Positions 14,051 through 37,017 of a DNA stretch of 64,000 nucleotides are shown here, piece by piece. The notes under the pieces are model-generated. The model did no database searches, was not told the origin of the DNA, and saw only the letters and a list, made by a program, of their open reading frames with translations. The position numbers were made by a program, and so were the translations under genes. Each line of letters starts with the position of its first letter. Position 1 is the first letter of the stretch. The stretch comes from Flavobacteriaceae bacterium (GTDB taxonomy: Bacteria > Bacteroidota > Bacteroidia > Flavobacteriales > Flavobacteriaceae), in the NCBI GenBank assembly GCA_947446635.1, contig CANFHF010000010.1, positions 1 through 64,000 on the forward strand. The letters are read 5' to 3'.

Positions 14051-14749
14051 TTAATTTTTAGATTGCAACAACATCCATTCATAAATTTCAGAATTATCAT
14101 AAACACGACTCCAACTATCATGCCCAGCATCATCAAAAATTTCGAGTTTAATATCTTTATTGCACTCTTTTATCTTTTTATAAATAGTGATGGAATAATT
14201 TACATCAACAATAGTGTCATGTAGTCCGTGGTAAATTCGAATTGGAATGGTAGCCAATTTACAAGCTTCAATCATTGGAACTCTATCGACAAACCCCGCA
14301 ATTGGAACTACGGCAGCAAATAATTCAGGATGTGCATAAGCAAGATTCCAAGCTCCCCATCCACCCATACTCAATCCTGTGAGATAAATTCTATTGACAT
14401 CGATGTTATTTTCCGATATTATTTTATTAATCAGCAAATACAACTCTTCTGAATCCCAATATTTCCCTTCTGGACATTGAGGTGCTAAAATAAAAGCGGC
14501 TAATTGATGCGATTTAATATACTTTAAAGGGCCGTAGATTTTTAATTTTTCTAAATCATTGCCTTTTTCACCAGAGCCGTGTAGGAAAATAATAAGGGGC
14601 TGTTTCTCTTTTGTATTTTGAGGTTTGGATAAAATGTATTTGAATTCAAATTGATTCTTGATTTCGGCATTAAAACGTCCAATAGTTTCATTTTGACTAA
14701 AACAAGTCATTGAAAAAATTAAAAATAGAGTTGCTATCAACGTTTTCAT
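14051..14749 (-). CDS. Secreted alpha/beta-hydrolase (prolyl-oligopeptidase / carbohydrate-esterase-like)
   Basis: Signal peptide; PLIIFLHGSGEKG, YLTGLSMGGWGAWNLA (GxSxG), IRIYHGLHDTIVDVN, DDAGHDSW catalytic His. Confidence 0.85.
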   Translation of the reverse strand: MKTLIATLFLIFSMTCFSQNETIGRFNAEIKNQFEFKYILSKPQNTKEKQPLIIFLHGSGEKGNDLEKLKIYGPLKYIKSHQLAAFILAPQCPEGKYWDSEELYLLINKIISENNIDVNRIYLTGLSMGGWGAWNLAYAHPELFAAVVPIAGFVDRVPMIEACKLATIPIRIYHGLHDTIVDVNYSITIYKKIKECNKDIKLEIFDDAGHDSWSRVYDNSEIYEWMLLQSKN

Positions 14750-14781
14750 AGCGACGTAATTTTAGAAAATACTATACAATA

Positions 14782-16593: not shown

Positions 16594-16598
16594 ATTTA

Positions 16599-18554: not shown

Positions 18555-18617
18555 TTATTTGATTTATTTACAAAACATAAAAACAATACTAAAAAAAGGT
18601 AGTGTTTTTATTTGATT
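18505..18617. repeat. ~59-bp imperfect tandem duplication spanning the esterase start codon and the GH3 stop codon
   Basis: Copy A 18505-18564 and copy B 18564-18617 share cataaaa(g/a)caat(g/a)ctaaaaaaa..ggtagtgtttt..atttgatt. Confidence 0.85.
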
Positions 18618-20836
18618 AATTCAAAACTATCTTTCAAGCGAATATCTGCCGATGACGACCCAATCATTAGGTCAAAATCTCCAGGTTCTGAATTATATTC
18701 TAACTTATCATTATAAAAAGACAATTTTTGATTGTCAATTATAAATTTGATTTTTTTTGTTTCCCCAACTGCCAACTTGATTTTTTGGAAATCTTTCAAT
18801 TCAATAATTGGCCGTACAACAGAACCTACTTTATCCCTCAAATACAATTGTACTACTTCTTCTCCAGCTACTTTTCCCGAATTAGTAATAGTTACAGTTA
18901 CCTCAATGGTTTCGGTTGCTTTCATTTTATTTTTGGATAGTTCTAAATTCGAATACTCGAAAGTGGTGTAACTTAATCCATACCCAAAAGGAAATTTCGG
19001 AGTATTTGGCAAATCAATATAGGCTGATTTGTAGTTTTTATTTTCATTAATAGACGGTCTTCCTGTATTGAAATAATTGTAATAGATTGGAATTTGTCCT
19101 TCTTCTCTTGGAAAAGACATGGGTAATTTTCCAGAGGGATTGTAATCGCCAAATAAAACGTCGGCGATAGCATTTCCGGCTTCTGATCCCAACCACCATG
19201 TATAAAGAATAGTTGGCATATTATCGGCAGTCCAATTAAAAATTAAGGGGCGACCCCCATTTATCAAAACCACAACTGGCTTTCCAGTGGCTTGAATGGC
19301 TTTAACCAAATCTTCTTGAACGCCTGGCAAATGAATATTGCTTTTGCTTTTAGCTTCGCCACTCATATTCCAACTTTCACCAATACTTATAATCACCACA
19401 TCGGATTGATTGGCTATCGCAACTGCTTCTTGAAAACCCGTTTTATCTTCGCCTTGAATTCCGCAACCTTTGGCGTAAAGTATTTTAGTATTCTGGCTTA
19501 TTTTATTTGATATTCCTTCCCATTGCGACACAATATAAGTACTGTCAATCTCTTTCAAATCAATTGCCCAATAACCGTGATTGGCTCTTTTTAATTTTAC
19601 CATTGGCCCAATAAAAGCTATTGTTTTTGTTTCTTTAGAAAGCGGTAAAATGTGCTCTTCATTTTTTAACAAAACAATACTTTTTGTTGCTATTTCACGG
19701 GCAATTCGGGTGTGTTCGGGATTGTTTAATGCTGTTTTTTCTCTTTCTGGATTGCAATATCGAAATGGATCATCAAATAATCCCAACTCAAATTTTTTGT
19801 GAAGGATTCTTTTTACGGCATCATCAACAAGTGTAATTGAAATCTTTTTTTCTTTGACTAACTTCACTAAATTATTTCTATAAGCGTTACTTTCCATATC
19901 CATATCGCTGCCAGCGGTTATTGCAGCTATCGCTGCTTCTCTACTGTCTTTTACAAATCCATGACTAATCATTTCACCAATGGAACCCCAATCTGAAACC
20001 ACGAAACCTTTAAAGTTCCATTTTCCTTTTAGAATATCTCTTTGCAAATAGCGATTCCCAGTTGCGGGAATTCCATTTAAATCATTGAATGAATTCATCA
20101 ATGTAGCCGCCCCAGCTTCAACGGCTGCTTTGAAGGGCGGTAAATAGGTTTCCCAAAGCATTCTTTCGCTCATGTCAACTGAATTATAGTCTCGTCCGCC
20201 AATGGCAGCACCATAAGCAGCAAAATGTTTAGCACACGCCATAACCGAATTCAAATCACCCAATTTTTCTCCTTGAAAGCCTTTTACCCGAGCATAAGCA
20301 ATTTTAGAACCCAAATAGGTATCTTCTCCCGCTCCTTCCATTACTCTTCCCCAACGAGGGTCCCGAGAGATATCAACCATTGGGGCAAATACCCAATGAA
20401 TTCCTGATGCTGATGCTTCTGTAGCAGCAATTCTTGCCGAAAGTTCTATTGCAGGTAAATCCCAACTTGCAGCTTCTGCCAATGGAATTGGGAAAGTAGT
20501 TTTATAACCATGAATGACATCTTGCCCAAATAACAAAGGAATTTTTAATCGGGAATGCATGGCCAATTCTTGGTATTGCCGAGTATATTTTGTTCCCAAA
20601 ACATTCAACATCGAACCTAATATTCCTTGCTTAATTTCAGATTGTTTGTTTGTGTTTATAGTAATTGGCCCCGTTGCTCCATTATCACCAGAATATTGAT
20701 TGAGTTGTCCTATTTTTTCCTCAATAGTCATTTTATTGAGCAGAGCATCAACTTTTTTATCAATTGTTTTTTGTTGTGAAAAACAGATTAAAGAAGAAAA
20801 AAGTATTAGATAAGTTATGCTTATTTTAGTATTCAT
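18608..20836 (-). CDS. bglX: Glycoside hydrolase family 3 beta-glucosidase (BglX-like)
   Basis: MTIEEKIGQLNQY, FGQDVIHGYKTTFPIPLAEAASWD, FAPMVDISRDPRWGRVMEGAGEDTYLGS, CAKHFAAYGA, GFVVSDWGSIGEM, fibronectin-III-like C-terminus. Confidence 0.95.
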   Translation of the reverse strand: MNTKISITYLILFSSLICFSQQKTIDKKVDALLNKMTIEEKIGQLNQYSGDNGATGPITINTNKQSEIKQGILGSMLNVLGTKYTRQYQELAMHSRLKIPLLFGQDVIHGYKTTFPIPLAEAASWDLPAIELSARIAATEASASGIHWVFAPMVDISRDPRWGRVMEGAGEDTYLGSKIAYARVKGFQGEKLGDLNSVMACAKHFAAYGAAIGGRDYNSVDMSERMLWETYLPPFKAAVEAGAATLMNSFNDLNGIPATGNRYLQRDILKGKWNFKGFVVSDWGSIGEMISHGFVKDSREAAIAAITAGSDMDMESNAYRNNLVKLVKEKKISITLVDDAVKRILHKKFELGLFDDPFRYCNPEREKTALNNPEHTRIAREIATKSIVLLKNEEHILPLSKETKTIAFIGPMVKLKRANHGYWAIDLKEIDSTYIVSQWEGISNKISQNTKILYAKGCGIQGEDKTGFQEAVAIANQSDVVIISIGESWNMSGEAKSKSNIHLPGVQEDLVKAIQATGKPVVVLINGGRPLIFNWTADNMPTILYTWWLGSEAGNAIADVLFGDYNPSGKLPMSFPREEGQIPIYYNYFNTGRPSINENKNYKSAYIDLPNTPKFPFGYGLSYTTFEYSNLELSKNKMKATETIEVTVTITNSGKVAGEEVVQLYLRDKVGSVVRPIIELKDFQKIKLAVGETKKIKFIIDNQKLSFYNDKLEYNSEPGDFDLMIGSSSADIRLKDSFELIK

Positions 20837-20859
20837 TTGGGGGTAATTAGGATATGTAT

Positions 20860-22317
20860 TTAAAAAACTAAAGTTTGAATAGCATGTGGCAAAATAGTAA
20901 CCTGCGTAGCTTCAGTACCAATACATAAATAATAATTTAATTTTTTATCGCTTTGATTCATAACAATTGTAATTACTTTTCCGTCTTTGTTTATAAAAGA
21001 AGTAGTTAGTAATTGACTTCGACTAGCAATAGAACTAATTCGTTTTGCTTCTTTCGAAATAAATTTTGAAAAATGGCCAATAAAATAATACGACGGTGTG
21101 TAAATCAATTCCCCCGTTTTTGTATCTGCATGAATTGGTGAAAAACAAAAATTACCTACGTGATTTGGACCTCCATTTTCATCTAGCAATATGTTCCAAT
21201 CGGTCCAACCCACGGTGCCATTGTTGAAATCGTTTATCATCGAACGACCATATCGCTCTCCGTTTTTCCATAGTTGGTATTTATTTGCATCAAATTTTTC
21301 AACACAGCCTTCGGTAAAAAGGAGGTTCTTGTTGGGGTACATTTCGTGTGTTTTTCCAACATTTCCATACATCATATCGCCTCCGCTCCAGTTTTCATAC
21401 CAATGGTAGCCAATTCCCCATACATATTTATTGGCTTTAGCATCATCAAGAATTGTAGTTACTCGTTGCGAAATTAAATCTCTATTATGATCCCAGATGG
21501 TTATTTTTTTGTTGCCAAAGCCTGATTTTTTCAAAGTTGGACCAAGGTAATTTTTAAGAAAATCCCTTTCTTCTTCAGCCGAATAAATACACGATTCCCA
21601 TCGTTGTGTTGCCATTGGCTCGTTTTGAATGGTTAATCCCCAAATAGGAATACCTTCTTTTTGGTAAGCGTTTATAAACTTAACGTAATAATTTGCCCAT
21701 GATTGATAATATTCGGGCAACAGTTTGCCTCCGTTGAGTACAGAAGCATTGTCTTTCATAAAGGCAGGTGGAGACCATGGGCTTGCATATAGAGTTGCTT
21801 CTTCGCCTATTAGTTCCATTGCTTTTTTAATTAATGGTATTCTGAATTTTTTATCGTGATCAATTGAAAATGTTTTCAAATCTTTATCGCCTTCGGTAAC
21901 ATAAGTGTACCTATCGGAACTAAAATCGCAACTATGAATAGTAGTTCGTATCAGCGAATACCCAATCCCTTTCTCTTTAGAATAATAGGCATCAAGTAAT
22001 TCTTGTTGTTTGTTTTGAGGTAATTTTGCAAATACTTCGGCCGAAGCATCGGTTATTGCACCGCCAATTCCTAAAAAGGTTTGATATGTTTTATTAGGAT
22101 TTACAAAGACACAAAGTTGTGTTTCTAAAGGCTGATTGAGTTCTTTAAAAGTGAGATTGTCTGTTTTTGTTAATCTTAAGTTTGTACTATCAGCAGAAGT
22201 ATAAACAATTACGGTTCTGTTTTGTATAGAAAAGGATGTTCCTCCCGATTTTTTTTTCCCTTGAGAAAAAGAAACTAATGAAAGAATCAATAATAGGGAT
22301 AGTGTTATATTTTTCAT
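20860..22317 (-). CDS. Glycoside hydrolase family 30 (glucosylceramidase / beta-glucanase-like)
   Basis: FLGIGGAITDASAEVF, YASPWSPPAFMK, LTIQNEPMATQRWESC, LLFTEGCVE, GTVGWTDWNILLDENGGPNHV. Confidence 0.93.
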   Translation of the reverse strand: MKNITLSLLLILSLVSFSQGKKKSGGTSFSIQNRTVIVYTSADSTNLRLTKTDNLTFKELNQPLETQLCVFVNPNKTYQTFLGIGGAITDASAEVFAKLPQNKQQELLDAYYSKEKGIGYSLIRTTIHSCDFSSDRYTYVTEGDKDLKTFSIDHDKKFRIPLIKKAMELIGEEATLYASPWSPPAFMKDNASVLNGGKLLPEYYQSWANYYVKFINAYQKEGIPIWGLTIQNEPMATQRWESCIYSAEEERDFLKNYLGPTLKKSGFGNKKITIWDHNRDLISQRVTTILDDAKANKYVWGIGYHWYENWSGGDMMYGNVGKTHEMYPNKNLLFTEGCVEKFDANKYQLWKNGERYGRSMINDFNNGTVGWTDWNILLDENGGPNHVGNFCFSPIHADTKTGELIYTPSYYFIGHFSKFISKEAKRISSIASRSQLLTTSFINKDGKVITIVMNQSDKKLNYYLCIGTEATQVTILPHAIQTLVF

Positions 22318-22326
22318 TTTTATATT

Positions 22327-24063
22327 TTACCAAATGTAAGTTCCAACAGCACCCGAATTTAGTGTTGTTGTTATCCATTTTCCGTTGTGTTTTATGTTAA
22401 AATTTTCCGTTGTATAGCCATCATTTTCAATAATCAGTACTTTTTTGCCAGAAGGTGTTTTAAAAGCTACATTACTTAAATTACCACTCGTATTTGATGC
22501 AATTCTAATAGAACCATCTGGAACAAATTTCGATGCATGAGCAATAATATAATAGCTCACATTTCGAGCAACACTACCATTGGAAATAGTTAATGCACCT
22601 TTGCATTGAGTACATCCACCAGAAGTATGAGGTTCAAAAGAGGCATTGTTTGCTAAATTCCATTCTAATGCGTTTTTGCTCCAATTTCTCATGGAACCAA
22701 TAACAACATTTTTTGTATGCCATTTCAAATCTCCTCCAAAATCACCAGTTGAAGAAGTCCATTGTTCTGTAAAATAAACATTTTTATTTGGGAAAGCAGT
22801 ATGAACAGTTGTTAAAGCACTAATATCCCCACCGTATAAATGAAATGCCGAACCATCAACATAAGGATAGGCTGCAGCGTCACTTAATATGCTAATTGGA
22901 TAACTTGGGACGTCGCAATTGTGATCGTAACTTACGATTTTAGTAGTAATATTTTCATTTTGGAATGCTAATCCTAGTTTTTTTATAAAACTCAATTCTT
23001 GTGCAGCCGACATTGTCATACTTGGATTGTTATTTGGATTCAGAGGTTCGTTTTGAGGGCAAATGGCATCTATTGTAATTCCATTTGCTTGCATACCTTG
23101 AATGTATTTTACAAAGTAAGTGGCATACGAATTATAATAATTGACTGACAACGTGCTGCCAACAGAAGTGTAATTACTTTTCATCCAGGAAGGTGCTGAC
23201 CATGGCACAGCCATTAATTTTATATTTGGATTGATGAGAATAATTTCTTTAAGCAATGGAATTAAATTTGTCATATCTGGCGCAAGGCTAAACAGTAATT
23301 GACTTGTATCTGATTGTCCACTAGGTAAGTCATTATAGCTAAAAACAGTAGCATTCAAATCGGATGCGCCAATGCTAATCCTTAAGTAACTTATTCCAAT
23401 AGAATGGGTTGAATTGCCAAAAAGTTCCTGTAATAATTCTTGTTTTTTTGCTGGATTTAATGAGTTAATTAACTCGGCGCTTCCGCCTGTTAATGTATAA
23501 CCAAATCCATCAATTGTTTGAAAAGTTTGATTTTCATCAACGTTAATTGTTTGATAACTATTGACTGAAGTTCCAAATGCTTGAATTGTGTTTTGTTTTT
23601 GAAGTAATACCGATTGGTCTCCTTTTGTTAGCCAAATATCAACTTCACTAGCAAGAATTCCATTATCGAGGATTGTTCCAACACCAATTATCGGAGAGGT
23701 ATTACAGGTATTGTTTGATGTTACTGTACCTGTTATCGTAAATGTTTCTGTCGATTCTGTAATAGAGTCATTATTGGTTGGAATATTTACCGTTATTGAT
23801 GTTTGCCCTGCCAGAATTGTTTTTGTTATAACAGTGGTGGTAAAATCATCAGTTGTTGCGGTGTTAGGTGTCGTTATAAGGTTAATAGTAGTAGCAGTAG
23901 TACTGGTGTCAGTTAATGTTATTGTAAAAATCACATCGGCTCCTTCTGTAACAGGAGTACTTGTAATACTTATTATTGGCTTTAAAACAGGAGCTGCTTC
24001 TGCATTTGCTGAAGAGCATTTGGATAGAAAAGCAGTAAACGTTAAAAAAAGTAAAAGTTTCAT
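22327..24063 (-). CDS. Lipoprotein GH30 with N-terminal Calx-beta-like domain
   Basis: Lipobox FLSKCSS; ITSTPVTEGADVIFTITLTDTSTTATTINLITTPNTATTDDFT...TESTETFTITGTVT (Calx-beta-like); GH30 motifs DGFGYTLTGGSAELI, VPWSAPSWMKS, CPQNEPLNPN, YFTEQWT. Confidence 0.9.
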   Translation of the reverse strand: MKLLLFLTFTAFLSKCSSANAEAAPVLKPIISITSTPVTEGADVIFTITLTDTSTTATTINLITTPNTATTDDFTTTVITKTILAGQTSITVNIPTNNDSITESTETFTITGTVTSNNTCNTSPIIGVGTILDNGILASEVDIWLTKGDQSVLLQKQNTIQAFGTSVNSYQTINVDENQTFQTIDGFGYTLTGGSAELINSLNPAKKQELLQELFGNSTHSIGISYLRISIGASDLNATVFSYNDLPSGQSDTSQLLFSLAPDMTNLIPLLKEIILINPNIKLMAVPWSAPSWMKSNYTSVGSTLSVNYYNSYATYFVKYIQGMQANGITIDAICPQNEPLNPNNNPSMTMSAAQELSFIKKLGLAFQNENITTKIVSYDHNCDVPSYPISILSDAAAYPYVDGSAFHLYGGDISALTTVHTAFPNKNVYFTEQWTSSTGDFGGDLKWHTKNVVIGSMRNWSKNALEWNLANNASFEPHTSGGCTQCKGALTISNGSVARNVSYYIIAHASKFVPDGSIRIASNTSGNLSNVAFKTPSGKKVLIIENDGYTTENFNIKHNGKWITTTLNSGAVGTYIW

Positions 24064-24074
24064 AATTTTATTTA

Positions 24075-24935
24075 TTAGTAACCATAATTGTTATTTAAAT
24101 CTATTTCAACAAAAACCGGAAGATGGTCTGATGGATATTTTAAATCTTTTGAATCACTTAAGACCGCATATTTTATAACTTTATAATTTGTTTTTTTTGA
24201 TATAAAAATATAATCAATCAACTTAGTAACAGCTTCATCATGTTTGAAATTATTAAATGTTCCTGAAGGTCCAAATGGTTTTTCTTCTGAAATAGCACGG
24301 CTATCATCCATTACTTTTTTCAACGCAATAATCCTTGCGGTAGTAGGCTCTGAATTAAAATCACCCATAAATAGTACAGGGTATTTTTTGGAATTTAATG
24401 ATTCTATTTTTGAAAGAATAAGTTCAATTCCCTTGGTTCTAGCTTCTTCGCCTATATGGTCTAAATGGGTATTGAATACCCAAAAAGCATCTTTTGTTTT
24501 TTTATCTACAAATAAAGCATAGGTGCAAACTCTATTATAAGCAGCGTCCCAACCTTTTGAAATTTCGTTAGGAGTTTCAGAAAGCCAAAAAGTATTGGAT
24601 TCCTTTATTCTAAACCTTTCTCTTTTGTAAAATATAGAAGAGGATTCTCCTTTTCCAACCCCTTCTCTTCCAATTCCAACATTGTCATATTGAGTAAGAA
24701 GAGAGCTAATGTCAATTACTTGGTTTGGTTTTGCTTCTTGAATTCCAAAGATGTCTGGTTCGTAAAACTGGATTTGAGAAGCAAAAAAATCTTTACGATG
24801 TGTCCAATCATTTTCACCATCAACGGCTACATCAAGGCGAATGTTATAGGTCATCAATTTAATGGTTTGACAATTTACCGTCACGCCATTGTTAAGAACG
24901 ACTAGAAACACTATTAATTTATGGAAACACCTCAT
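24075..24935 (-). CDS. Exported endonuclease/exonuclease/phosphatase (EEP) family protein
   Basis: Hydrophobic N-terminus; KLMTYNIRLD, PDIFGIQEAKPNQ, FNTHLDHIGEEAR, FMGDFNSEP, YPSDHLPVFVEI. Confidence 0.92.
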   Translation of the reverse strand: MRCFHKLIVFLVVLNNGVTVNCQTIKLMTYNIRLDVAVDGENDWTHRKDFFASQIQFYEPDIFGIQEAKPNQVIDISSLLTQYDNVGIGREGVGKGESSSIFYKRERFRIKESNTFWLSETPNEISKGWDAAYNRVCTYALFVDKKTKDAFWVFNTHLDHIGEEARTKGIELILSKIESLNSKKYPVLFMGDFNSEPTTARIIALKKVMDDSRAISEEKPFGPSGTFNNFKHDEAVTKLIDYIFISKKTNYKVIKYAVLSDSKDLKYPSDHLPVFVEIDLNNNYGY

Positions 24936-25048
24936 CTTTTTCTAAATTTTCCATTGATATTTCTGTTTTTTAAAAATGCAAATCAAAATTAACAGTCGAA
25001 AAAAAGTAACGTACTTTAAAAGCACAACTTTTTCATTACATGCAGATT

Positions 25049-26545
25049 TTAATAACCAGGATTTTGTGTTAAATTCGGATTATTCTCCAAAACAGCTTGC
25101 GGCACAGGCAATAATAAATGATTGACATCTAAATTATTAGCATATGGCATCGGTATTTGCACACTTATATCTGGTGTAGGATTATACGTTTGCTGAGACA
25201 AAATTTCAATTGATTTTCCTTCTCTTTTCAAATCAAACCATCTATGCCCTTCAAATGCTAATTCCACAAATCGTTCTTTAAGAATTTTATTAATTGCATC
25301 GTCTTCGGATACTGCAGGCTCCACATTTGCTAATGAAACTCTAGTTCTTATTTGGTTTACCAATGTCATTGCACCAGTAAGATCTCCGGTATGTGCTAGA
25401 GCCTCTGCTTTTAATAGTATAATGTCGGCTAGACGAAAAATATAGAAATTTTGAGATCCATCTGTAGCACGCATTCTCCAAGGATTTGGGAATTTAGTAT
25501 AAGATGTCCAATACGGATCTGCGAATGTTGTAGGGAAAAGTTTAATTGTTGAAAGTTTCCTTTTGGCATCTAATGCGAGGTTTAATGTATGTGATGGGGT
25601 ATTGAATTTTTTCCAATTGCTTCCAAGAAATACATTAGTACACCAACCGTTTATTCCCCCTACATCTAGGGGATTACCATTTACCTCCCAAATAGATTCT
25701 GCATTTCCATCATGAAGATTGTTAAACAGGTCATCAAAATCAGGCATTAGACTATATTTACCACTATTAATTACCGCATTCGAATATTGAATACATTTTG
25801 CCCAATCAGGATTTGGCATGGTAGCATATACTTTTGCTAATAAAGCATTGGCAGCACCTTTACTGGCTCTGAATTTACTCGCTGCAGCTGTAGTCGATCT
25901 AGGTGCTTTAGCTAAAGCCACTTCACAATCTGCAATTATAGCATCATATACTTCTGAAACAGGTTTTCTTACGGGATATAATGAAGGATAAAGTTGGTCG
26001 AAATTGTCGTTATTTATTGAGGTTACTGTTTCGTTTACCAATGGGAAATCTCCCCATGTTTGCACCGCTTGAAAACGAGTCATGGCTCTGATTAAAGAGG
26101 CTTCCCCAATCATTTCATCTTTTCTTTCTTGAGATAGTCCCTCTGCCTTATCCGCATAATTGATCACTAGATTACACCTTTTTACAAAATCATTCAGCCA
26201 ATTCCAATCTCTAGCAACAACATAATCGGTAGCAATGGTTCGGTATTCGTCTATTTGAAAAAAGTCATCGCCATCAGCACCGGAATACGCTACATCAGAT
26301 CCGGCATCGCCAAGAAAAAAATAGTCAAACTGCCAATATTCAATCCCAAAAGAATTATTACAGGATTTCATGGCTAATTCCGCTTCGACGGCGTTGCTGA
26401 TTAATTGTTCGGTTTGAGGCGGGCTGATTTCGTCCGTAATGGGCTCCGTGTTTAATAGATTATCCGTGATATCACTACAAGAAGTAAGAAGCAAAATGCT
26501 TACGCTAAAAAACACTATTTTTTTATATATATTTGATTTTTTCAT
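25049..26545 (-). CDS. susD: RagB/SusD family nutrient-uptake outer-membrane lipoprotein
   Basis: Lipobox LLTSCSD; RAMTRFQAVQTWGDFPLVNE, FRLADIILLKAEALAHTGD, ERFVELAFEGHRWFDLKREGK. Confidence 0.96.
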   Translation of the reverse strand: MKKSNIYKKIVFFSVSILLLTSCSDITDNLLNTEPITDEISPPQTEQLISNAVEAELAMKSCNNSFGIEYWQFDYFFLGDAGSDVAYSGADGDDFFQIDEYRTIATDYVVARDWNWLNDFVKRCNLVINYADKAEGLSQERKDEMIGEASLIRAMTRFQAVQTWGDFPLVNETVTSINNDNFDQLYPSLYPVRKPVSEVYDAIIADCEVALAKAPRSTTAAASKFRASKGAANALLAKVYATMPNPDWAKCIQYSNAVINSGKYSLMPDFDDLFNNLHDGNAESIWEVNGNPLDVGGINGWCTNVFLGSNWKKFNTPSHTLNLALDAKRKLSTIKLFPTTFADPYWTSYTKFPNPWRMRATDGSQNFYIFRLADIILLKAEALAHTGDLTGAMTLVNQIRTRVSLANVEPAVSEDDAINKILKERFVELAFEGHRWFDLKREGKSIEILSQQTYNPTPDISVQIPMPYANNLDVNHLLLPVPQAVLENNPNLTQNPGY

Positions 26546-26561
26546 AGTTTATAGTTTTAAA

Positions 26562-29525
26562 TTAAAATCCAGCTTTTAAACCGAAAATAAATGTTCGTAC
26601 TTGAGGATAGGTGCCATAATCAATACCTTGTCCCGTTCCTGTATTTCCTCCAAAAGCACTAACTTCTGGATCAAATCCTGAATATTTCGTCCAAGTAATT
26701 AGATTTTGCCCTGTGGCATATAATTTTAAAGAACTTAGGCCTAAAAACAATTTTTTAAAATTATAGCCTAAGGTCGCCGCTTTAATCCGAATGTATGATC
26801 CATCTTCAATCCACCGGGTAGAGTTTGCGGTTGCGGCAATTCCTTGAAAATTAGTTGGCCCTGCTTTAGGAACATCGGTTATTTGTCCCACAGTGGTCCA
26901 CCTGTCTAAAACAGCAACTGATTGGTTTTTGTTGTCCTTCATTCCTTCTAAATCAATGCGAGAGGCATTGAAAATATCGTTTCCTTGACTACTAGTTACT
27001 AGGACATCTAGCAAAAATCCTTTATAAGAAAAGGTGTTAGTGATGCCAAAAGTATATTTTGGCATGGCATTTCCAATTATGGTTTGATCACTCCCAGGTT
27101 TAATAAAACCATCTACATTAAGGTCTTTAAATTCTAAAATTCCAGTTGTTGAATTTACTTCTTTCACCACATAACCATAAAAATTACCCAAAGATTGCCC
27201 TTTTACTATTTTATTTACGTTGGCATATCCTTTGTAAATTACATCAGAATATTTTCCCATTTCCAATACTTTATTTTCAATAAAGGAAATATTAAAGTTT
27301 GTGTTCCAGTTGAAATCGCCTTTAATATTAGTTGTGCTTAATGCCAATTCCAATCCTTTGTTTTCAAGTTTTCCTCCATTATATAAATAGGGGATATTGA
27401 AAACACTAACATTATTAAATAAATTAGAAGTTATTTTTTTGAAGGCGTCAAGATTTAATCTTACCCGATTATTTAGCAAGGACAAATCTAATCCCACATT
27501 GAAATCGGAGGTGGTTTCCCAAGTTAAATCGGTGTTGATATAGTTTTGTAAGGTTCCGTGATCGTCACCAAGTAATCCAAATGAGGAATATTCGCTAACG
27601 CCATTAATATTACCTGATTGACCCCAGCCACCTCTTATTTTTAATTCTGAAATGATACGGTTGTTTTTTAGAATATTTTCGTTTGATACAATCCAAGCTG
27701 CGGAAACCCCAGGAAAGTAACCCCATTTATGATTTTTAGCCAATTGAGACGCTCCGCTGTTTCTATAGACCATATTCAAAATATACTTTTCTTTGAAATT
27801 ATAAGTGACTCTACCAAAATAGGAAATATAATTTTTTTCTCTTGCAATGGTGTCTGAAGACTGTCGGTTTAAAAACATCATTTGTGAAATATCCAATTTC
27901 CTTAAATCGGTTGCGAAACCGGTTCCTTCAATTTTCAGTTGGTCATATCGTTGTTTTTGAATGCTACTTCCCGCCATTAAACTAATATCATGATTACTGG
28001 ATTTTATAGCATAATTTAAAGTGTTTTCTATATTCCAATTCCTATTTACAGCGTTGTGTTCTCGGCCAATCCCTTTCGTATTGGCTGGGTTAGAAGCTTC
28101 TCCACGACCATAATTAGATCGGTAACTATCTACAAAAAAATCGTAAACACTTTTATAAAGATCTACGGATGATGCAGGTTTCCATATTAAGTTTTTAGCC
28201 AAGGTAATATCAAGGCTTAAATTAGCCAAATATCGAATGGTTTTGTTGTCTTCTTGTCGGCTTTGAAAAGAAATCGGATTTTCTAATGAAGCTACTGGAT
28301 TGGCAGCAAATTGACCTGGTTCTTGACCATTAGCCACGGCTCCACCTACAAGCCCATCTGCATAAATGGGTAAGAAAGCTGGAGTTGTTAAGGCGCTTAA
28401 AATAACACCGCCTTGATTGGCGCTATTGTTGTCGCTAGTGTTGTTCAGCATTGTCTGAATTAGATTCATATTGACATGGGCTTTCAGCCAAGGCGCTGCA
28501 TTCACATCTACGTTTACTCTTCCGGACAATCTAGAGAAATTAGAAGGCGATACAATTCCTTTGGTGTCTTGATAGCCTAATGAGGCAAATGCCTTTATGT
28601 CTTCGCTTCCTCCTGAGTATGAAAAATCATAGTTTTTATCTATTCCAGTTTGAAACACTAAATCTCGCCAATTGCTATTTATTCCGACATATTTAGGATC
28701 ATCTATATAGCCAACATATCCTGTAGAAATACCGCTCATTAATGTTCTGTATTGTTCTGTATTCAAAACACTAATGTTTTTTACAATTTTTGAATTTCCT
28801 AAATAAGATGTAAAACTGAAGGTGTTTTTATTGACTTTTCCTCTTTTTGTAGTGATAATTACAACGCCTGCGCTTCCATTAACACCGTAAATTGCCGTAG
28901 CAGTTGCATCTTTTAATATTTGGATGTCTACAATGTCATCCGTGCTAATACCAGTACTGTCATAGGTTTGAACGCCATCAATAACAAACATTGGATTGTT
29001 CCCAGAATTGATAGAGCTTAAACCACGAATTCTAATATCTAAACCAACTCCTGGTTTTCCTGAAGGCTGGATCACGTTTACCCCAGCCGCATTTCCTTGT
29101 AAAGCTTGACCAACATTAAATAACGGACGGTCATCAAAGGCTTCTGATCGAACGGTTGAAATGGCATTGGTGATATTCTTTTTCTTTTGTGTGCCGTATC
29201 CAACGTTGATGACAACTTCTTCTAATTTATTGGTTTCTTCGGTAAGTGATATATTTAGTGTTTGTGATTTAGTCACTTTTACCTCTTTAGAAACAGATCC
29301 AATATTTGAAAATAGTATAATATCGTTTGCGTTTACTTTTATAGAATAATTCCCATCTAAACTAGAGGAAACGCCTTTTTTACTATTTTTAATACTAACA
29401 TTCGCACCTGGAATGCCTAATTTTGTTTTAGAGTCAGATACAATTCCTTTAATTTCAATTGTTTGCGAATTTGCAAAAGCAACAATAAAAAGAAAAAGTA
29501 ACCCTAGATAATTTTTAAATTTCAT
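26562..29525 (-). CDS. susC: SusC/RagA family TonB-linked outer-membrane protein
   Basis: Carboxypeptidase-regulatory-like N-domain, VVINVGYGTQKKKNITNAIS, plug (VIDGVQTYDSTGISTDDIVDIQILKDATATAIYG), C-terminal beta-strand FGLKAGF. Confidence 0.97.
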   Translation of the reverse strand: MKFKNYLGLLFLFIVAFANSQTIEIKGIVSDSKTKLGIPGANVSIKNSKKGVSSSLDGNYSIKVNANDIILFSNIGSVSKEVKVTKSQTLNISLTEETNKLEEVVINVGYGTQKKKNITNAISTVRSEAFDDRPLFNVGQALQGNAAGVNVIQPSGKPGVGLDIRIRGLSSINSGNNPMFVIDGVQTYDSTGISTDDIVDIQILKDATATAIYGVNGSAGVVIITTKRGKVNKNTFSFTSYLGNSKIVKNISVLNTEQYRTLMSGISTGYVGYIDDPKYVGINSNWRDLVFQTGIDKNYDFSYSGGSEDIKAFASLGYQDTKGIVSPSNFSRLSGRVNVDVNAAPWLKAHVNMNLIQTMLNNTSDNNSANQGGVILSALTTPAFLPIYADGLVGGAVANGQEPGQFAANPVASLENPISFQSRQEDNKTIRYLANLSLDITLAKNLIWKPASSVDLYKSVYDFFVDSYRSNYGRGEASNPANTKGIGREHNAVNRNWNIENTLNYAIKSSNHDISLMAGSSIQKQRYDQLKIEGTGFATDLRKLDISQMMFLNRQSSDTIAREKNYISYFGRVTYNFKEKYILNMVYRNSGASQLAKNHKWGYFPGVSAAWIVSNENILKNNRIISELKIRGGWGQSGNINGVSEYSSFGLLGDDHGTLQNYINTDLTWETTSDFNVGLDLSLLNNRVRLNLDAFKKITSNLFNNVSVFNIPYLYNGGKLENKGLELALSTTNIKGDFNWNTNFNISFIENKVLEMGKYSDVIYKGYANVNKIVKGQSLGNFYGYVVKEVNSTTGILEFKDLNVDGFIKPGSDQTIIGNAMPKYTFGITNTFSYKGFLLDVLVTSSQGNDIFNASRIDLEGMKDNKNQSVAVLDRWTTVGQITDVPKAGPTNFQGIAATANSTRWIEDGSYIRIKAATLGYNFKKLFLGLSSLKLYATGQNLITWTKYSGFDPEVSAFGGNTGTGQGIDYGTYPQVRTFIFGLKAGF

Positions 29526-29652
29526 AATAGTTTAATTTTGGTTTTTTTTGGATTAATTCATTTGACAATGGTTTTGATTCTGTTCTTGTGAAACAACTAT
29601 TCTAGTCCGTTTCTAATGCCGAGTTCTGTTCAATATTCTATAAAATGCTTTT

Positions 29653-29745
29653 TTATGAGATGAGAAGAAATACAACCCAAGTCCCTATGAGGCTAATTAT
29701 CGCCCAGGAACAAACTTCAACCCACATCTCATCTGAATTTCTCAT
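29653..29745 (-). CDS. Putative 30-aa membrane micro-protein in the susC leader
   Basis: ATG (29745) to TAA (29653) reads MRNSDEMWVEVCSWAIISLIGTWVVFLLIS: charged N-terminus followed by one hydrophobic helix. Confidence 0.4.
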   Translation of the reverse strand: MRNSDEMWVEVCSWAIISLIGTWVVFLLIS

Positions 29746-29822
29746 ATTTTTTCATTTTTAAATTCAATGACTGCTTCATTATTATTCTCATATATATGAA
29801 ATAGACAGCAATCCCTTGCGGT

Positions 29823-29957
29823 ACAATATTAGCCTTTGTTTAACTATAAAGGCAGTAAGTTTACTACACTTGAATTACGCTAGTAAAAACAGACTCATTA
29901 CTTGTTGATTACTTTTATTTTTTTAAATAATTGTTTTTCAATACTTTAATTCAAAAT
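29823..29957 (-). promoter_or_regulatory. Copy 1 of duplicated PUL cis-element upstream of susC
   Basis: Shares 21-bp identical core actacacttgaattacgctag (29863-29883) plus gttgatta..taaataattgtttttcaata block with 33883-34015. Confidence 0.75.
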
Positions 29958-29996
29958 AGGCTAATAAAAAAATAATTTCATTTTTTACCGAAAGAT

Positions 29997-30278
29997 GAAT
30001 TTAAAACAGTTAAAAAACATCCGCCCTTTTTATTGGGGCTACAAAAATACCAAGTACCATCACGAATACAAGAGGGTGATATGATTATTTAATAGGAATC
30101 CAAAGATCAAAAATAATATAAAGATCAAAATCTAGAATTTGTAGACTATAACTTATAGAAAGCAGCTATTAATTTACGGAATCAAATAGATTACGATTTT
30201 AGTTTTCTTCACCGAGAATGTTATCTAGTACTGATCCAAATGAGCCACTAAAATGTTGATGAAAATTAGTGCATTTGG
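29997..30278 (+). pseudogene. Decayed fragment of a paralog of the triple-tyrosine/HTH regulator (34105-37017)
   Basis: 29997-30126 aligns to about 34851-34983 (e.g. atttaataggaa..caaag.tcaaaaataata); 30130-30278 aligns to about 36062-36222 (gctatt.attt.c.gaatcaaa...tacgattt.agttttcttcacc); stops and frameshifts, about 1.1 kb internal deletion. Confidence 0.8.
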
Positions 30279-30498
30279 TTATCCCAATCATTATCAACCA
30301 TTTTAGTACAATGACTTTGAATACCATGTGGTTTTTTGGTTTGTGTAATTTAAATAAGACCTCTTTCAATAGCGCTAACGATTTATGATTAAATGTCACA
30401 CTGACTACGCTAACTACGCTGATTATAATTTGTGTGTTCATTATTCATAACGATGATTTTTGTATATCGCTATTCAGGATGGGATATTAATAAACAAA

Positions 30499-30526
30499 AA
30501 AAAGGCTGTCCTTTCGGACAGCCTTT
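30499..30526 (-). terminator. Strong rho-independent terminator after the T9SS glycan-binding gene
   Basis: Perfect 11-bp stem aaaggctgtcc-tttc-ggacagccttt with T-tract on the minus strand. Confidence 0.88.
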
Positions 30527-30555
30527 CTCTTTTAATAAGAGTATCTAGGATACGA

Positions 30556-33500
30556 TTATTTTTTAATCAATCGTAGTGTTTTAACTTGTGCATCTTGAGT
30601 TACAATTACATTGTAAATACCTCGAGCATAGTTAGCCCCTATTTGAGAATCAGATTTTAGCTGACGTTGTTCGATTGAACGACCCAACATATCATAAACC
30701 TGTACTCCAAATGGTTTTCTATTACTAGAATTAATTTTAAATCCTTCAGTAGATGGATTTGGATAAGCCACCACTTTGAATACACTAGCAACTGGCGCCA
30801 CTTTTGCTCCAGCAGCACAAGTCACAAGTTCTGTCAATTTCAATACTGTACCTTTTGCAGTTTGTCCTGCACCATTGATAGATTTGATATCTAGTGTCAA
30901 TTTTGTTGAAACACTTACACTTGCATAAACAACTTTAAATGTCAAATCAGAGGTAGTTAAGATATTTGCCGAAGCACCTGAAACACCATTATCAGAAGTA
31001 ACAGTAGATCCAACAGGTCCTGTAATTAAATACTTAATAGCTTTTGCATTTGCTGTAATGGTATAGTTAAATCCTGTACCTATATTACAAACACTAAGTG
31101 AACCTGTAACTTTAGGCGCTGTTGGTAACACTCTTTTTAAAGGCAATACTTTAGCAACTGAAGTTCCTGCTCCGTTTACAGCATGCGCATTGATGACCAA
31201 TGACGTAGTAGCTGGAAGAACGTTTTTTAAATTTACGTGTATCACATTAGAAGTACTTGTATAAAACCCTGTTTGAGCATTTACACAAGTTGCATCAGAT
31301 GAAATAATTGTAGTAGGAAGTACCCATTTGTATGAAGTAGGTGTTAATCCTGCTGTAGTAGCCGGTGTAGCAGTCAAGGTAAGCTCTGTGTCAACTCCAG
31401 AATATAAACTTACATCAGTAATTGCTGTAGTTGCAGTACCATTAGTAAGTACTAAAGTTTTTAATACAGCTGGTATAGCTCTTGTAAAAGCAACACTTTC
31501 TCCATTAAGTAATGAACCACAACCCAAAGCATTAAATGACTTAACAGTAACCTTAGCATACGCTGTGTTTAAATCAGACGCACTAAACTTAACATAGATA
31601 AATGCATCAGTACTAGTTGTACTAGAGTTAGTACCTACACCATTTGCAGCAGTTCTAACAATTCCAGTAGGCAATGTCCAATCATAAGAACTTGCTCCAG
31701 CAGTAGCTGTTAATGTTAATGCTGTATTAGTTCCAACATAACATCCTACGGCAGTAATTGCTGTAGTTGCAGTACCATTAGTAAGTTTTAAAGCTCCTGA
31801 TTTAGCTTTTAAAGCAAGTCCTGTAACTGTTACCAAAAGTCTTGGACTTTCTGTTCCAGCACCTAACTTTTGAGAAACATAATATTTCACAGCTTTTGCA
31901 GTTGCCAAAGGAGCAGTAGGAAGCGCAGTTACTCCTGTTAAAGTAGTATACCATTTTAAAGAGTATCCTGAAAGTGCAGTAGCTGCTCCAGTAACTGGAG
32001 AACCAACACATGCACCTGCACCTGCAGTAGGAGCAGCTGGGGTTGTACCCTCGTCTACTGTCCCATTACAGTTGTCATCAATTCCGTTAGCTGTGTCTGT
32101 AGCACCTGGGTGTACAGCAGCTTTAGTATCATCGCAATCAGTATTGTTTGCTGAATATCCTGCATGAGTTCCTGAAGTATAAAATACAACAACATCAGCA
32201 GCAACATCACCATAACCATCAGCATCAGCATCAGCATAATAACTAAAAACAGCAGATGTAGCGAAATTATAAGCTAATGTGTTTCTATTAAAAGAAATGT
32301 CATAAACCCCTGAAGGTACAACTATATTACTTTCACCACCACCAGTTCCTATTGGAAATAAACATGGTTTTACACTTCCTCCAAAAGAATGAGCCCAATC
32401 ATGGTTGTCTCTGAATTTTACATCACCTGCTAAAACTTGATGCATAACAGAATAATTGATTCCGTCAGTAGAAGTTAAATCGATATCTGGACCACCATTA
32501 CCCCAATCATTGTGTCCTCCAATCATTGAAACGGTTATATTACTAAAGCTATATACTCCAGTACTTACTGTGAAATCTACATTATAAACAGCTTCAGTAA
32601 GTGAAATAAGAGCTCCGTTTTGAGTTCCAGTTCCCGAAAGAGATGCACTTGACCATTGGTTTTCTGTTCCGTCTTGGATAAATTTTGCAGTATCGGCACC
32701 ACATACTAAACTTTTTGTAGAATAATGCTCTCCGTCTGTAGTGTCTAATGCTATATCAGTCGCTCCAATTGCAGCTCCTGAAACTTTAATTATTGGATAA
32801 GGAGCTAATAATGTAAAAGCATATTCTCCAGTACTTCTATTAAAAGCTATATCATATCTTCCAAATTCAATTACCAAATCTTTAGATGAGCCAGAATTTA
32901 TTGCGATTCCTGAAGCTTCAGGAATGTTATTAAACTCTTCTGTCTTTCCAAATTGTACATTCCAACTATGATTGTCAGTAATTTTAAAGTGACAATACGG
33001 ATCTCCCCATGCAGATTTAAAAGTGTAGTTTGATCTGGTAAAATGTACCCCATCGGTTGTTGCTAAATCAACAGTTCCACCCCAACCACTTCCAACGAAG
33101 TTACCAATCATCCCTACAACAACTGGTTCAAAAACGAATTCTGGATTGCTGCTTCTGGTGAAGAAAACGTTATACGTTCCTGCAGGTACAGGAATTGAAG
33201 CTCCTGCTACAACTGGTCCTTCAGGAAAAGGGCCTCCCCATGTAAGATTTGTTCCAGCTTGAGCAAATGCACCATCTCCTCCTCCAAAAGTCACACTTTG
33301 CTTGTTGTAAGCAACTCCATTTGCAGTATTCATAATAATAGCTGCATCTAAACCACCTCCTGTTATGTTAACTGTAGGGTTAGGATTAACACCTGCAGTA
33401 AAAGCATACGCTTTAGTAACAATATTATAAGTTACAGACCAAAATCCTGGTGTAGCTATAATATTATTATTAATAGTTGCAGTTGGGTTTGCTGGATCAA

Positions 33501-33801
33501 TAGGATCCTTCAAGGTAGTATTAGCGCCTGCAATACCATTCGGGAATCCCGGAGCAGCAGTTGCTGTGCTAAAACCATTAGTTAAGTCCCAATTACCATT
33601 TTCGGAAAATTTAATTTGTCCGTCATTGATAATTTCAAAATTTGTTTTGGTGAAATTCTCCCCATCAGTAGAGGTTAGTGCCACCGCTCCGGGTTGATTC
33701 CAACCCCCAGTACCCGTCCCGGTAATACTTACCGTTGTTGTTTGGGCGTTCATGCAAAGGCCAAATACCAATGCAATCAATAAATGCAATTTTTTTTTCA
33801 T
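30556..33801 (-). CDS. Large modular T9SS-secreted protein: SusE/F-like repeats, MopE-like metal-binding motif, Ig-like repeats, T9SS type A sorting domain
   Basis: Signal peptide; five degenerate repeats (e.g. MIGNFVGSGWGGTVDLATTDGVHFTRS..., MIGGHNDWGNGGPDIDLTSTDGINYSV...); YYADADADGYGD...DCDDTKAAVHPGATDTANGIDDNCNGTVDEG; C-terminal VAYPNPSTEGFKINSSN...VQVYDMLGRSIEQ...GIYNVIVTQDAQVKTLRLIKK. Confidence 0.88.
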   Translation of the reverse strand: MKKKLHLLIALVFGLCMNAQTTTVSITGTGTGGWNQPGAVALTSTDGENFTKTNFEIINDGQIKFSENGNWDLTNGFSTATAAPGFPNGIAGANTTLKDPIDPANPTATINNNIIATPGFWSVTYNIVTKAYAFTAGVNPNPTVNITGGGLDAAIIMNTANGVAYNKQSVTFGGGDGAFAQAGTNLTWGGPFPEGPVVAGASIPVPAGTYNVFFTRSSNPEFVFEPVVVGMIGNFVGSGWGGTVDLATTDGVHFTRSNYTFKSAWGDPYCHFKITDNHSWNVQFGKTEEFNNIPEASGIAINSGSSKDLVIEFGRYDIAFNRSTGEYAFTLLAPYPIIKVSGAAIGATDIALDTTDGEHYSTKSLVCGADTAKFIQDGTENQWSSASLSGTGTQNGALISLTEAVYNVDFTVSTGVYSFSNITVSMIGGHNDWGNGGPDIDLTSTDGINYSVMHQVLAGDVKFRDNHDWAHSFGGSVKPCLFPIGTGGGESNIVVPSGVYDISFNRNTLAYNFATSAVFSYYADADADGYGDVAADVVVFYTSGTHAGYSANNTDCDDTKAAVHPGATDTANGIDDNCNGTVDEGTTPAAPTAGAGACVGSPVTGAATALSGYSLKWYTTLTGVTALPTAPLATAKAVKYYVSQKLGAGTESPRLLVTVTGLALKAKSGALKLTNGTATTAITAVGCYVGTNTALTLTATAGASSYDWTLPTGIVRTAANGVGTNSSTTSTDAFIYVKFSASDLNTAYAKVTVKSFNALGCGSLLNGESVAFTRAIPAVLKTLVLTNGTATTAITDVSLYSGVDTELTLTATPATTAGLTPTSYKWVLPTTIISSDATCVNAQTGFYTSTSNVIHVNLKNVLPATTSLVINAHAVNGAGTSVAKVLPLKRVLPTAPKVTGSLSVCNIGTGFNYTITANAKAIKYLITGPVGSTVTSDNGVSGASANILTTSDLTFKVVYASVSVSTKLTLDIKSINGAGQTAKGTVLKLTELVTCAAGAKVAPVASVFKVVAYPNPSTEGFKINSSNRKPFGVQVYDMLGRSIEQRQLKSDSQIGANYARGIYNVIVTQDAQVKTLRLIKK
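31416..31786. repeat. Pair of identical 35-bp direct repeats inside the T9SS gene (31416-31450 and 31752-31786)
   Basis: cagtaattgctgtagttgcagtaccattagtaagt at both positions; encodes LTNGTATTAIT. Confidence 0.9.
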
Positions 33802-33882
33802 AATAAATAATTTAAGTTAAAAATAGGTTAGTGATTCATAATCGTCCTCGTACGTATGTAAAATAAACGGTATGATATCATT

Positions 33883-34015
33883 GCAATATTAGGATTTGTT
33901 TAACTACAACAACGTAAGGGCACTACACTTGAATTACGCTAGAAAAAAAAATCGCTACGTGTTGATTACTTTTTTTTTTTTAAATAATTGTTTTTCAATA
34001 GTTTAATTTAAAATA
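33883..34015. promoter_or_regulatory. Copy 2 of duplicated PUL cis-element, between the divergent T9SS gene and regulator
   Basis: Core actacacttgaattacgctag at 33922-33942; gttgattactttt...taaataattgtttttcaata from 33961. Confidence 0.75.
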
Positions 34016-34104
34016 TAATTAAATGATATCTTAAATTAATAAAGAGTACATTTGTTTTACCTACAGAATTAATTTAAACCCGATTAAACAAAATATCCCC
34101 AGAT

Positions 34105-37017
34105 ATGCCTAAACATTGTATATATAATTTGTTTCGAATAGTACTTGCTATTGGATTGTTTTATTCTTCGATAGTAGTAGCTCAAACTAAGCCCATTAGC
34201 GATGAGATTGAAAATAAGTTAAGATCACCAAAAGTTGTTCGTTACAATAGAAATGATTTTAATGCTGATCCTCAGTTTTGGACCATGTGTGAAAATGATG
34301 ACAGAACATTGATTTTCGGAAATAATGACGGTGCAATAGTATTTGATGGGGAGTATTGGAAAAAAGTTGTTTTGCCTAATAATTCGTCTATTAGAAGTTT
34401 AGTTAAAACAAAAGAAGGTACAATTTATGCTGGTGGATATAATGAGTTGGGTACTTTACAAAAGAATAAGTTCGGGAATTATTTTTACAAGTCCTTGCTG
34501 TCCAAATTTCACTTGGAAAATAAAAACATAGAAAACCTTTGGCAAGTACATCAGTTTAATGACCTTATTATATACAGGGCTTTTAGTGAGCTTATTGTTA
34601 TTAATGGCAACACAGTTTCGCAACTTAGCGCTAATAAAGCCTTTGTTTATTCTGGACGAGTAAATGATAATTATTTCGTTCAAGATTCGGATTTTGGAAT
34701 TTATAAACTAGATGTCAAAACGATGACGCTAGAACTTGTGTTTGAAGTAAATTCCATTTCAAATGAAGAAATTGCTTCAATCCTTCCAACTTCTGATCTA
34801 AATACAATAACCCTTATTGCAAAGTCAGGAAATGTATATGCAGCTAATATTAATTCTAAAACAGTTGTAAAAAAATACAATCTTTTTAATGGCGGCAGAA
34901 AGGACCAAGTAACCTTTGGGATACAAGATGAGAATAAAGACTATTTAATAGGAACTCAAAGTTCAAAAATAATAAAAATAACCAACTCTGGAGCAATACA
35001 ACAAGGAACTACTACTTTTTCTGGGCTTTCAAATGCAGCCATTCATTTTCTTTTTCAAACTAAAAACCATACTACTTGGGTGTTGCAAAATAATGGATTG
35101 AGTTTTATAGATTATAAATCTCCTTTCGCCTCTGTTTTTGATCAAGCGTCTGTTTATGATATCCTGATAAAAGATAATATTATATATACCGCGACCAATA
35201 CAGGCGTGTATTTTGCAAATAATAATGGGAGTTTTAATTTTAATAAAGTTGATGACTTACAGGGACAATCGTGGGCGGTTCAAAATTTTGAAGATGCCGT
35301 AATTATTTCACACGATACGGGACTTTACGAATTTAGTAATGGTACGGCTAAAAAAATTGGCAAAGAAACTGGGTTTTGGAAACTCACAAAAATAAAAGAT
35401 AGAAAAGGCATGTATTTGGGTTCTAATTATAATGGTTTGTTTCTTATTGAAAAAAGGGATAATCACTGGGATATAAAAAATAAAATAATTGGGTTTGATG
35501 AATCAACAAGAGATTTGTTAGCCGATTATGAACCGAATACCTATTGGATTTGCCATGGCTATAAAGGGGTTTATAAGATTCATATCAACAACGATTATTC
35601 TCGTGTTGATGTTGTGGATCATTTTACGGATCAAAACGGATTTAAATCACGATATAATATAAATGTTTTTAATTGGAATACTAAAATTGTTTTCACGACC
35701 AATACCGGCATTTATTTTTTTAATGCCCATACGAATAGGTTTGAACTATTTGAACCTTTAAACAAACTTTTTGATGCTTCAAAAAACACTAGAAAAATAA
35801 TTCAAACTAAAGATAAAACATGGTTCATACAAGATGATGAGGTGGGCTATTTTTTACTTAATCAAAAAAAATTAAATAAAGATTTGTTTCTTAACTTAAA
35901 AGGAAGTTTCAATAGAGGAATGGAATGCATCTATCCTTTAGCCAACAATAAAGTATTATTTGGTACTAATTCGGGTATTTTTCAATATAATTTAGACCAA
36001 CATCAAAACAAGCAAATCTTCCCGACCTTAATTAACCAAATAACATATACTCAAAATCGGAAAGTAGCATTTGTAGAACTTAATTCCAATAAATCCGCTA
36101 TTGATTTGCCGAATCAAACCGATATATTACGATTTGAGTTTTCTTCACCAACAATGCTATCAAGCACGGAAACGAATTATAGCTATAAACTTGAAAATAT
36201 TGATGAAAATTGGTCCGTTTGGCAGAAAAGTGCCTTTAAAGAATACACCCATTTACGACCAGGAAACTATACTTTTGTTGTAAAGAGTAGAAACTTAGCG
36301 GGACTTATAGGTAAAGAAACTAGATTTGAATTTACAATTTTACCTAAATGGTACGAAACAAACCTTGCCTATATCCTATATCTAATAGGGGTGTTTTTGC
36401 TAATTAAATATAGTATAAAATATGTTAATAAGAAAATAGCCTTTGAGCGAATGAAGTCTCAAGCTGAAATAAAAAAAACACAACAACTGTTAGCATTAGA
36501 GTTTGAGAAATTAGCCTTAGATCATGAAAATGAAGAGATTAGTAAAGAAAAATTAAATCTAGAAGTAGATGTTATTGATAAAAGTAAAGAATTGGCCAAT
36601 TACACCCTTTTATTAAGTCATAAAAAGAAAATATTTAGTGAATTACAAACCGATTTAAAAGAATTACGCGAGCTGCTAAAAAGTGATGAATCTAGAAGGA
36701 AAATAACTGAAATTTTCCAAAAATTAAATCAACATCGAATAGGAGAAGAATTTAATGAAATATTTGATGTTAATTTTGAAAAAATAAATCATAACTTTTT
36801 TGAAATATTGAAGCAAATGGATCCCTCGTTCACAAAACGAGAATTAAGTCTTTGCGCATTTATTAAAATGGATTTGACGAATAAAGAAATATCACCTTTA
36901 TTGAACATTTCCATTCGAGGAATTGAAACGGCAAGATATAAAATTAGAAAAAAATTGAAGCTTTCACATGATGACAACTTCATCTCTTTTTTAGAAAGTT
37001 TAGCTATGGAGGAATAA
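34105..37017 (+). CDS. Membrane-spanning PUL regulator: periplasmic sensor propeller, triple-tyrosine (Y_Y_Y) domain, one TM, coiled coil, LuxR-like HTH; no kinase domain
   Basis: YSYKLENIDENWSVWQKSAFKEYTHLRPGNYTFVVKSRNLAG (Y_Y_Y), TM LAYILYLIGVFLLIKY, C-terminal FTKRELSLCAFIKMDLTNKEISPLLNISIRGIETARYKIRKKLKL. Confidence 0.92.
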   Translation: MPKHCIYNLFRIVLAIGLFYSSIVVAQTKPISDEIENKLRSPKVVRYNRNDFNADPQFWTMCENDDRTLIFGNNDGAIVFDGEYWKKVVLPNNSSIRSLVKTKEGTIYAGGYNELGTLQKNKFGNYFYKSLLSKFHLENKNIENLWQVHQFNDLIIYRAFSELIVINGNTVSQLSANKAFVYSGRVNDNYFVQDSDFGIYKLDVKTMTLELVFEVNSISNEEIASILPTSDLNTITLIAKSGNVYAANINSKTVVKKYNLFNGGRKDQVTFGIQDENKDYLIGTQSSKIIKITNSGAIQQGTTTFSGLSNAAIHFLFQTKNHTTWVLQNNGLSFIDYKSPFASVFDQASVYDILIKDNIIYTATNTGVYFANNNGSFNFNKVDDLQGQSWAVQNFEDAVIISHDTGLYEFSNGTAKKIGKETGFWKLTKIKDRKGMYLGSNYNGLFLIEKRDNHWDIKNKIIGFDESTRDLLADYEPNTYWICHGYKGVYKIHINNDYSRVDVVDHFTDQNGFKSRYNINVFNWNTKIVFTTNTGIYFFNAHTNRFELFEPLNKLFDASKNTRKIIQTKDKTWFIQDDEVGYFLLNQKKLNKDLFLNLKGSFNRGMECIYPLANNKVLFGTNSGIFQYNLDQHQNKQIFPTLINQITYTQNRKVAFVELNSNKSAIDLPNQTDILRFEFSSPTMLSSTETNYSYKLENIDENWSVWQKSAFKEYTHLRPGNYTFVVKSRNLAGLIGKETRFEFTILPKWYETNLAYILYLIGVFLLIKYSIKYVNKKIAFERMKSQAEIKKTQQLLALEFEKLALDHENEEISKEKLNLEVDVIDKSKELANYTLLLSHKKKIFSELQTDLKELRELLKSDESRRKITEIFQKLNQHRIGEEFNEIFDVNFEKINHNFFEILKQMDPSFTKRELSLCAFIKMDLTNKEISPLLNISIRGIETARYKIRKKLKLSHDDNFISFLESLAMEE

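Follow-up and report, generated by a model that had tools for sequence, protein, structure and literature searches.

Relic of a duplicated regulator gene beside a conserved putative promoter/operator element in a polysaccharide-utilisation locus of a Flavobacterium lineage

In Bacteroides, the operators predicted for SusR-like regulators are direct repeats that lie 67 or 77 bp apart, and those predicted for the HTCS of polysaccharide-utilisation loci (PULs) are direct repeats that lie on average 21 bp apart (PMC3878776). The DNA-binding domain of SusR has been reported to be unlike known ones (PMC3878776). The regulator R, encoded in the window (the whole stretch of 64,000 nucleotides of Flavobacteriaceae DNA that was analysed), can be compared with both. 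As with SusR-like regulators, its gene lies beside SusC/SusD genes and its candidate operator is a direct repeat of fixed long spacing, but R carries a GerE/LuxR HTH and its repeat has a period of 32, compared with 67 or 77 bp for SusR. As in the HTCS, R combines a Y_Y_Y sensor part (the PDB match 4a2l is an HTCS sensor domain) with predicted direct-repeat operators; however, it ends in a LuxR-type rather than an AraC-type HTH, and its repeat has a period of 32, compared with the average of 21 bp for the HTCS. The only Pfam domains of R are Y_Y_Y, GerE, and a sub-threshold Reg_prop, and no histidine kinase or receiver domain was detected by Pfam. In the literature searched, no operator was found for the Y_Y_Y/LuxR-type regulator class in Flavobacterium. 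The genome contains no other close relative of R, only a paralogue of 26% identity (Y_Y_Y + GerE; contig C18, L049:8950-12307), which faces a 1038-aa protein without a confident family across a region holding a direct repeat of period 33. The features of the locus are collected in Table 1.

Table 1. Positions in the window of the regulator, its relic, the element copies, and neighbouring features.
Feature	Position	Strand	Remarks
SusC/RagA outer-membrane transporter gene susC	26562..29525	-	gene faced by E1; TIGR04056, E=1.4e-219
X-leader remnant, SusC side of E1	29754..29823	-	anchored global alignment to 33814-33883
E1, element copy 1, putative operator/promoter region between susC and relic	29824..29958	.	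84% identical to 33884-34015
-7-like box TAATATTG facing susC, intact in E1	29824..29831	-	conserved in relatives
E1 half-site A of direct repeat, CTACACTTGAATTACG	29864..29879	+	
E1 half-site B of direct repeat	29898..29915	+	34 bp from A; 32 bp in E2
Remnant of R leader	29976..30024	+	aligned to 34040-34104, p=0.0005 vs shuffles; overlaps ambiguous left edge of block 1
Broken regulator-facing -7 box, TTCATTTT for TACATTTG	29977..29984	+	29978 A>T, 29984 G>T
Relic block 1	29992..30129	+	R nucleotides 34846-34985, about residues 248-294
Relic block 2	30130..30278	+	R nucleotides about 36062-36222, about residues 653-706
Intrinsic terminator after X	30496..30531	-	MFE -24.7 kcal/mol, z -7.5
X, T9SS-tailed secreted protein, chimeric	30556..33801	-	1081 aa vs about 413 aa in relatives
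E2, element copy 2	33884..34054	.	half-sites 33923-33938, 33955-33972; R-facing -7 box TACATTTG at 34047-34054
Intact regulator R	34105..37017	+	Y_Y_Y + GerE/LuxR HTH; 970 aa

Adjoining E1, between susC and X, lies a pseudogene remnant of a duplicated R gene. The preliminary description had matched this DNA in two blocks to the intact regulator, had taken in-frame stops, indels, and an internal deletion of ~1.1 kb as the marks of a pseudogene, and had placed it beside cis-element copy 1, all of which held up; what it overlooked were losses of about 0.8 kb at both ends. The two blocks are on the plus strand and collinear with R, whose frame is interrupted by four stops (at 30119, 30156, 30200, and 30267) and ten indels, nine of them frame-changing. 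Together with the 1.1 kb internal deletion, the loss of about 0.77 kb of R coding sequence at the 5' end (start codon included) and of about 0.8 kb at the 3' end leaves about 300 of the 2913 nt of R (~10%). Since the R leader is still recognisable beside E1, the 5' deletion begins near the start codon and ends near residue 250, and the left edge of block 1 (29996-30024) is ambiguous between the R leader and about residue 250 of R. No match to R was found beyond 30278, and no relic of X coding sequence was matched to the left of E1 or in 30279-30490.

Both the AT-richness of the region and the division of the assembly into 93 contigs would suit an explanation of the similarity as chance or as an assembly artefact. 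However, the alignment scores to R (57 for block 1 and 70 for block 2) are far above those of 1000 dinucleotide shuffles of this AT-rich sequence (mean 18.5 and maximum 29 for block 1; mean 17.4 and maximum 27.5 for block 2), the divergence between relic and R is about 28%, and the relic groups with the window's R in a tree. The shuffle scores and the tree placement rule out chance similarity, and the divergence rules out a duplicated contig, so that this explanation retains only a negligible probability. The tree, built from the two relic blocks and 18 orthologues from other genomes, places the relic as sister to the R of the same genome (support 98/94) and not with the R of any relative, and therefore the duplication postdates the divergence from all the relatives sampled. 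The tip lengths (0.66 for the relic versus 0.035 for R) indicate that only one R copy stayed under selection. Substitutions in the relic are distributed over the codon positions as 16/18/26, which does not depart from evenness (p=0.29) but, in a comparison of low power, does not differ significantly from the distribution in the intact genes either.

In Flavobacterium relatives with an R of 60-80% identity, the order is mostly SusC(-) - X(-) - element - R(+), with an X of about 410-420 aa and with a single element and a single regulator in each locus. Amongst the relatives' loci read, the SusC-X gap is only 114-258 nt and in none does it contain another regulator, whether intact or broken; in the window the gap measures about 1030 nt and holds E1 and the relic. 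Neither an intact second regulator nor an unrelated intact gene occupies the place of the relic in the sampled relatives. When E1 plus the relic was used as a query against 400 genomes of the genus, it returned elements, intact R genes at orthologous loci, and a few short element-like matches, and nothing else.

The left flank of E1 bears on what was duplicated. On the SusC side, E1 is bordered by sequence resembling the leader of X (anchored global alignment, p=0.0008 in 5000 shuffles; free local alignment, p=0.012), and SusC (TIGR04056) and X (a T9SS-tailed secreted protein) belong to different, unrelated families. This points to a duplicated unit of X leader - element - R, placed next to SusC and probably not containing a SusC gene; the copy of X expected between SusC and E1 was lost or never arrived. 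The SusC-X gap of relatives was also tried as a source of the left flank and gave no significant match, with one borderline case. The preliminary description had proposed the duplication of an outer-membrane gene / element / regulator unit with the loss of one regulator, and the duplication and the regulator loss stand, but the outer-membrane gene does not, given the order SusC, X, element, R in relatives and the X-like leader beside E1. For a whole divergent SusC / element / regulator unit to have been duplicated, X would have to have replaced the second SusC later. Some relatives (L011, and also L061 and L062, which are more distant) do have SusC - element - R without X, and contig C63 carries another SusC copy specific to this lineage, with 83% identity to the window's. 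Nevertheless, the nearest relatives by R carry X between SusC and the element, X1 falls inside the X family of these loci, the SusC of C63 is followed by its own X without a visible element, and the left flank resembles the X leader, all of which make the duplication of a SusC-containing unit improbable.

The element retained in both copies has a recurrent architecture. Common to the relatives between X and R are a minus-strand -7-like box (TAATATTG) and the half-sites A (TACACTTGnATTACG) and B (TACnnnTTnATTACTTT), and their R genes are preceded by a TAnnTTTG box, a sequence that matches the flavobacterial -7 consensus for sigma-A (PMC9723704). Together, half-sites A and B make up a direct repeat with a period of 32, whose mean match over 13 orthologous sequences is 8.85/18, compared with a maximum of 7.77 over all offsets in 1000 shuffles, and this repeat is probably the binding site of R. 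The peak at 32 is the sole one in the elements, with none at the 67 or 77 bp of the SusR type. Within three mismatches, half-site A occurs only in E1, E2, and a third element (E3) in the whole assembly; as a sign of a wider regulon in relatives, matches elsewhere at two mismatches did not clearly exceed a reversed-pattern control in most genomes. No Rfam RNA was found in 29400-30600, and a scan for sigma-70-type promoters gave no excess over shuffles.

Of the columns that are invariant across ten relatives, E1 keeps 49/49 in its core and spacer, compared with 87/122 in the relic (Fisher p=1.6e-6). The susC-facing -7 box of E1 is intact and only the R-facing one is broken; in this divergent promoter, decay is thus confined to the dead arm. 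Additionally, the strong terminator between X and susC separates transcription driven by E2 from susC, a separation that provides a reason for E1 being kept. Most likely, E1 survives as the promoter of susC under the remaining R; a point against this is that the implied susC leader would be long (about 300 nt). The earlier proposal that one regulator may serve both promoters is plausible, with a single R left and all invariant bases of E1 in place. The spacing of E1 has not been retained: a 2-bp insertion sets its half-sites 34 bp apart (32 in E2, 31-33 in relatives), and its -7 box lies one base further from half-site A. These insertions could weaken E1 and leave some doubt about its role as a promoter.

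The altered spacing also speaks for an alternative in which the whole segment of E1 and relic is dead, with E1 seemingly preserved through recent conversion with E2 or the chance sparing of AT-rich motifs, and with susC transcribed from another promoter or by read-through from X. E1 and E2 are alike even at stretches of the T-rich spacer where the relatives differ, an identity that could reflect gene conversion rather than selection, and the interval from E1 to susC holds further AT-rich sequence. Several points argue against a dead segment: conservation does not extend into the R-facing -7 box and the relic, which is the pattern expected under selection on the susC-facing arm only; E1 and E2 differ freely around half-site A, which argues against a recent conversion tract there; and the terminator after X is strong. 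We regard a dead segment as rather unlikely, although it is the alternative to be taken most seriously, and the conservation of E1 as more probably the result of selection than of conversion.

Our preferred scenario, held with somewhat better than even confidence, is that the unit was duplicated, that the R copy decayed, and that E1 was kept as promoter/operator of susC under the remaining R. The X leader - divergent promoter/operator element - R unit would have been duplicated inside the PUL of this Flavobacterium lineage, through a series of events that we infer, to give the order SusC - E1 - R copy - X - E2 - R. Being redundant, the copy of R next to susC has decayed to about a tenth of its length and has lost its own -7 box, and E1 would have been kept for susC, a gene now situated about 1 kb beyond X and its strong terminator. 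As base conservation and architecture suggest, the remaining R probably binds the predicted direct repeat through its LuxR-type HTH in both E1 and E2, so that E1 would serve susC and the genes behind it and E2 would serve X, both being switched on by R.

The finding is well supported but modest. The relic resembles ordinary pseudogenes of local duplications in that the coding copy was lost via deletions, frameshifts, and stops, and differs from them in that the attached regulatory DNA keeps its invariant bases and the divergent promoter decayed on one arm. The attached putative operator is more informative than the pseudogene. The duplicated unit constitutes a natural experiment, in which the coding half rotted and the presumed operator half kept every invariant base, pointing to the bases needed by a Y_Y_Y/LuxR-type regulator of a polysaccharide locus and to the way in which several promoters can fall under a single regulator.

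Sequences like other parts of the locus also occur elsewhere in this genome. X is a chimera: its residues 1-520 match the X of related loci, whereas a MopE/Ig/T9SS-tail protein on contig C19 is the match for residues 517-1081. Its 3' end (30473-30781, comprising the T9SS sorting tail and the terminator) recurs with 87-98% identity at no fewer than seven further genomic sites; several of these copies sit at contig ends, and the last ~60 bases are identical in three, which suggests that tail and terminator form a dispersed, homogenised cassette. E3, overlooked in the preliminary account of the element copies (which correctly set copy 1 beside the relic), lies on contig C3 upstream of a 663-aa fusion (L048:7104-9283 = C3:130100-132282) of an X head (first ~180 aa, 88% DNA identity to the window's X) and an arylsulfotransferase (PF05935, E=1.4e-80). 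No relic of R was found beside E3, and no such fusion in the relatives searched. Of the 49 invariant bases, 13 have been lost from E3, and its function is therefore less certain.

Contig C63 (L094:1-4981) may represent a second locus or else stem from contamination. The X that follows its SusC is of the canonical four-domain type with a T9SS tail, and no element is visible in the leader of this X or before the contig ends. The leader of this X contains two copies of TTACAAAAACACATCA 33 bp apart, a motif also present upstream of the C18 paralogue of R, and TACAAAAACAcAtCA occurs twice at a distance of 33 in the intergenic region of that paralogue and also in the C63 X leader. The C18 and C63 repeats share the layout of the elements of R but differ in sequence.

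Collectively, E3 with its fusion gene and C63 suggest repeated copying and reshuffling of SusC, X, and element parts in this lineage. It is conceivable, and we propose it only tentatively, that the lineage widens the reach of R by duplicating 'head' modules, which consist of an element and its leader and in some cases include the first X domain. E1 would then serve susC, E2 the chimeric X, and E3 the X-head/arylsulfotransferase fusion at its distant site, with a single LuxR-type regulator acting on all three through a direct repeat with a period of about 32 bp. A layout of several element copies under one LuxR-type regulator with a ~32-bp repeat was not found in the literature searched. The locus behind E1 (14051-29525) encodes SusC, SusD, an Exo_endo_phos protein, two GH30, a GH3, a SASA esterase, a GH2, and an alpha/beta hydrolase, and the closest PDB matches of one of the GH30 proteins are glucosylceramidases.
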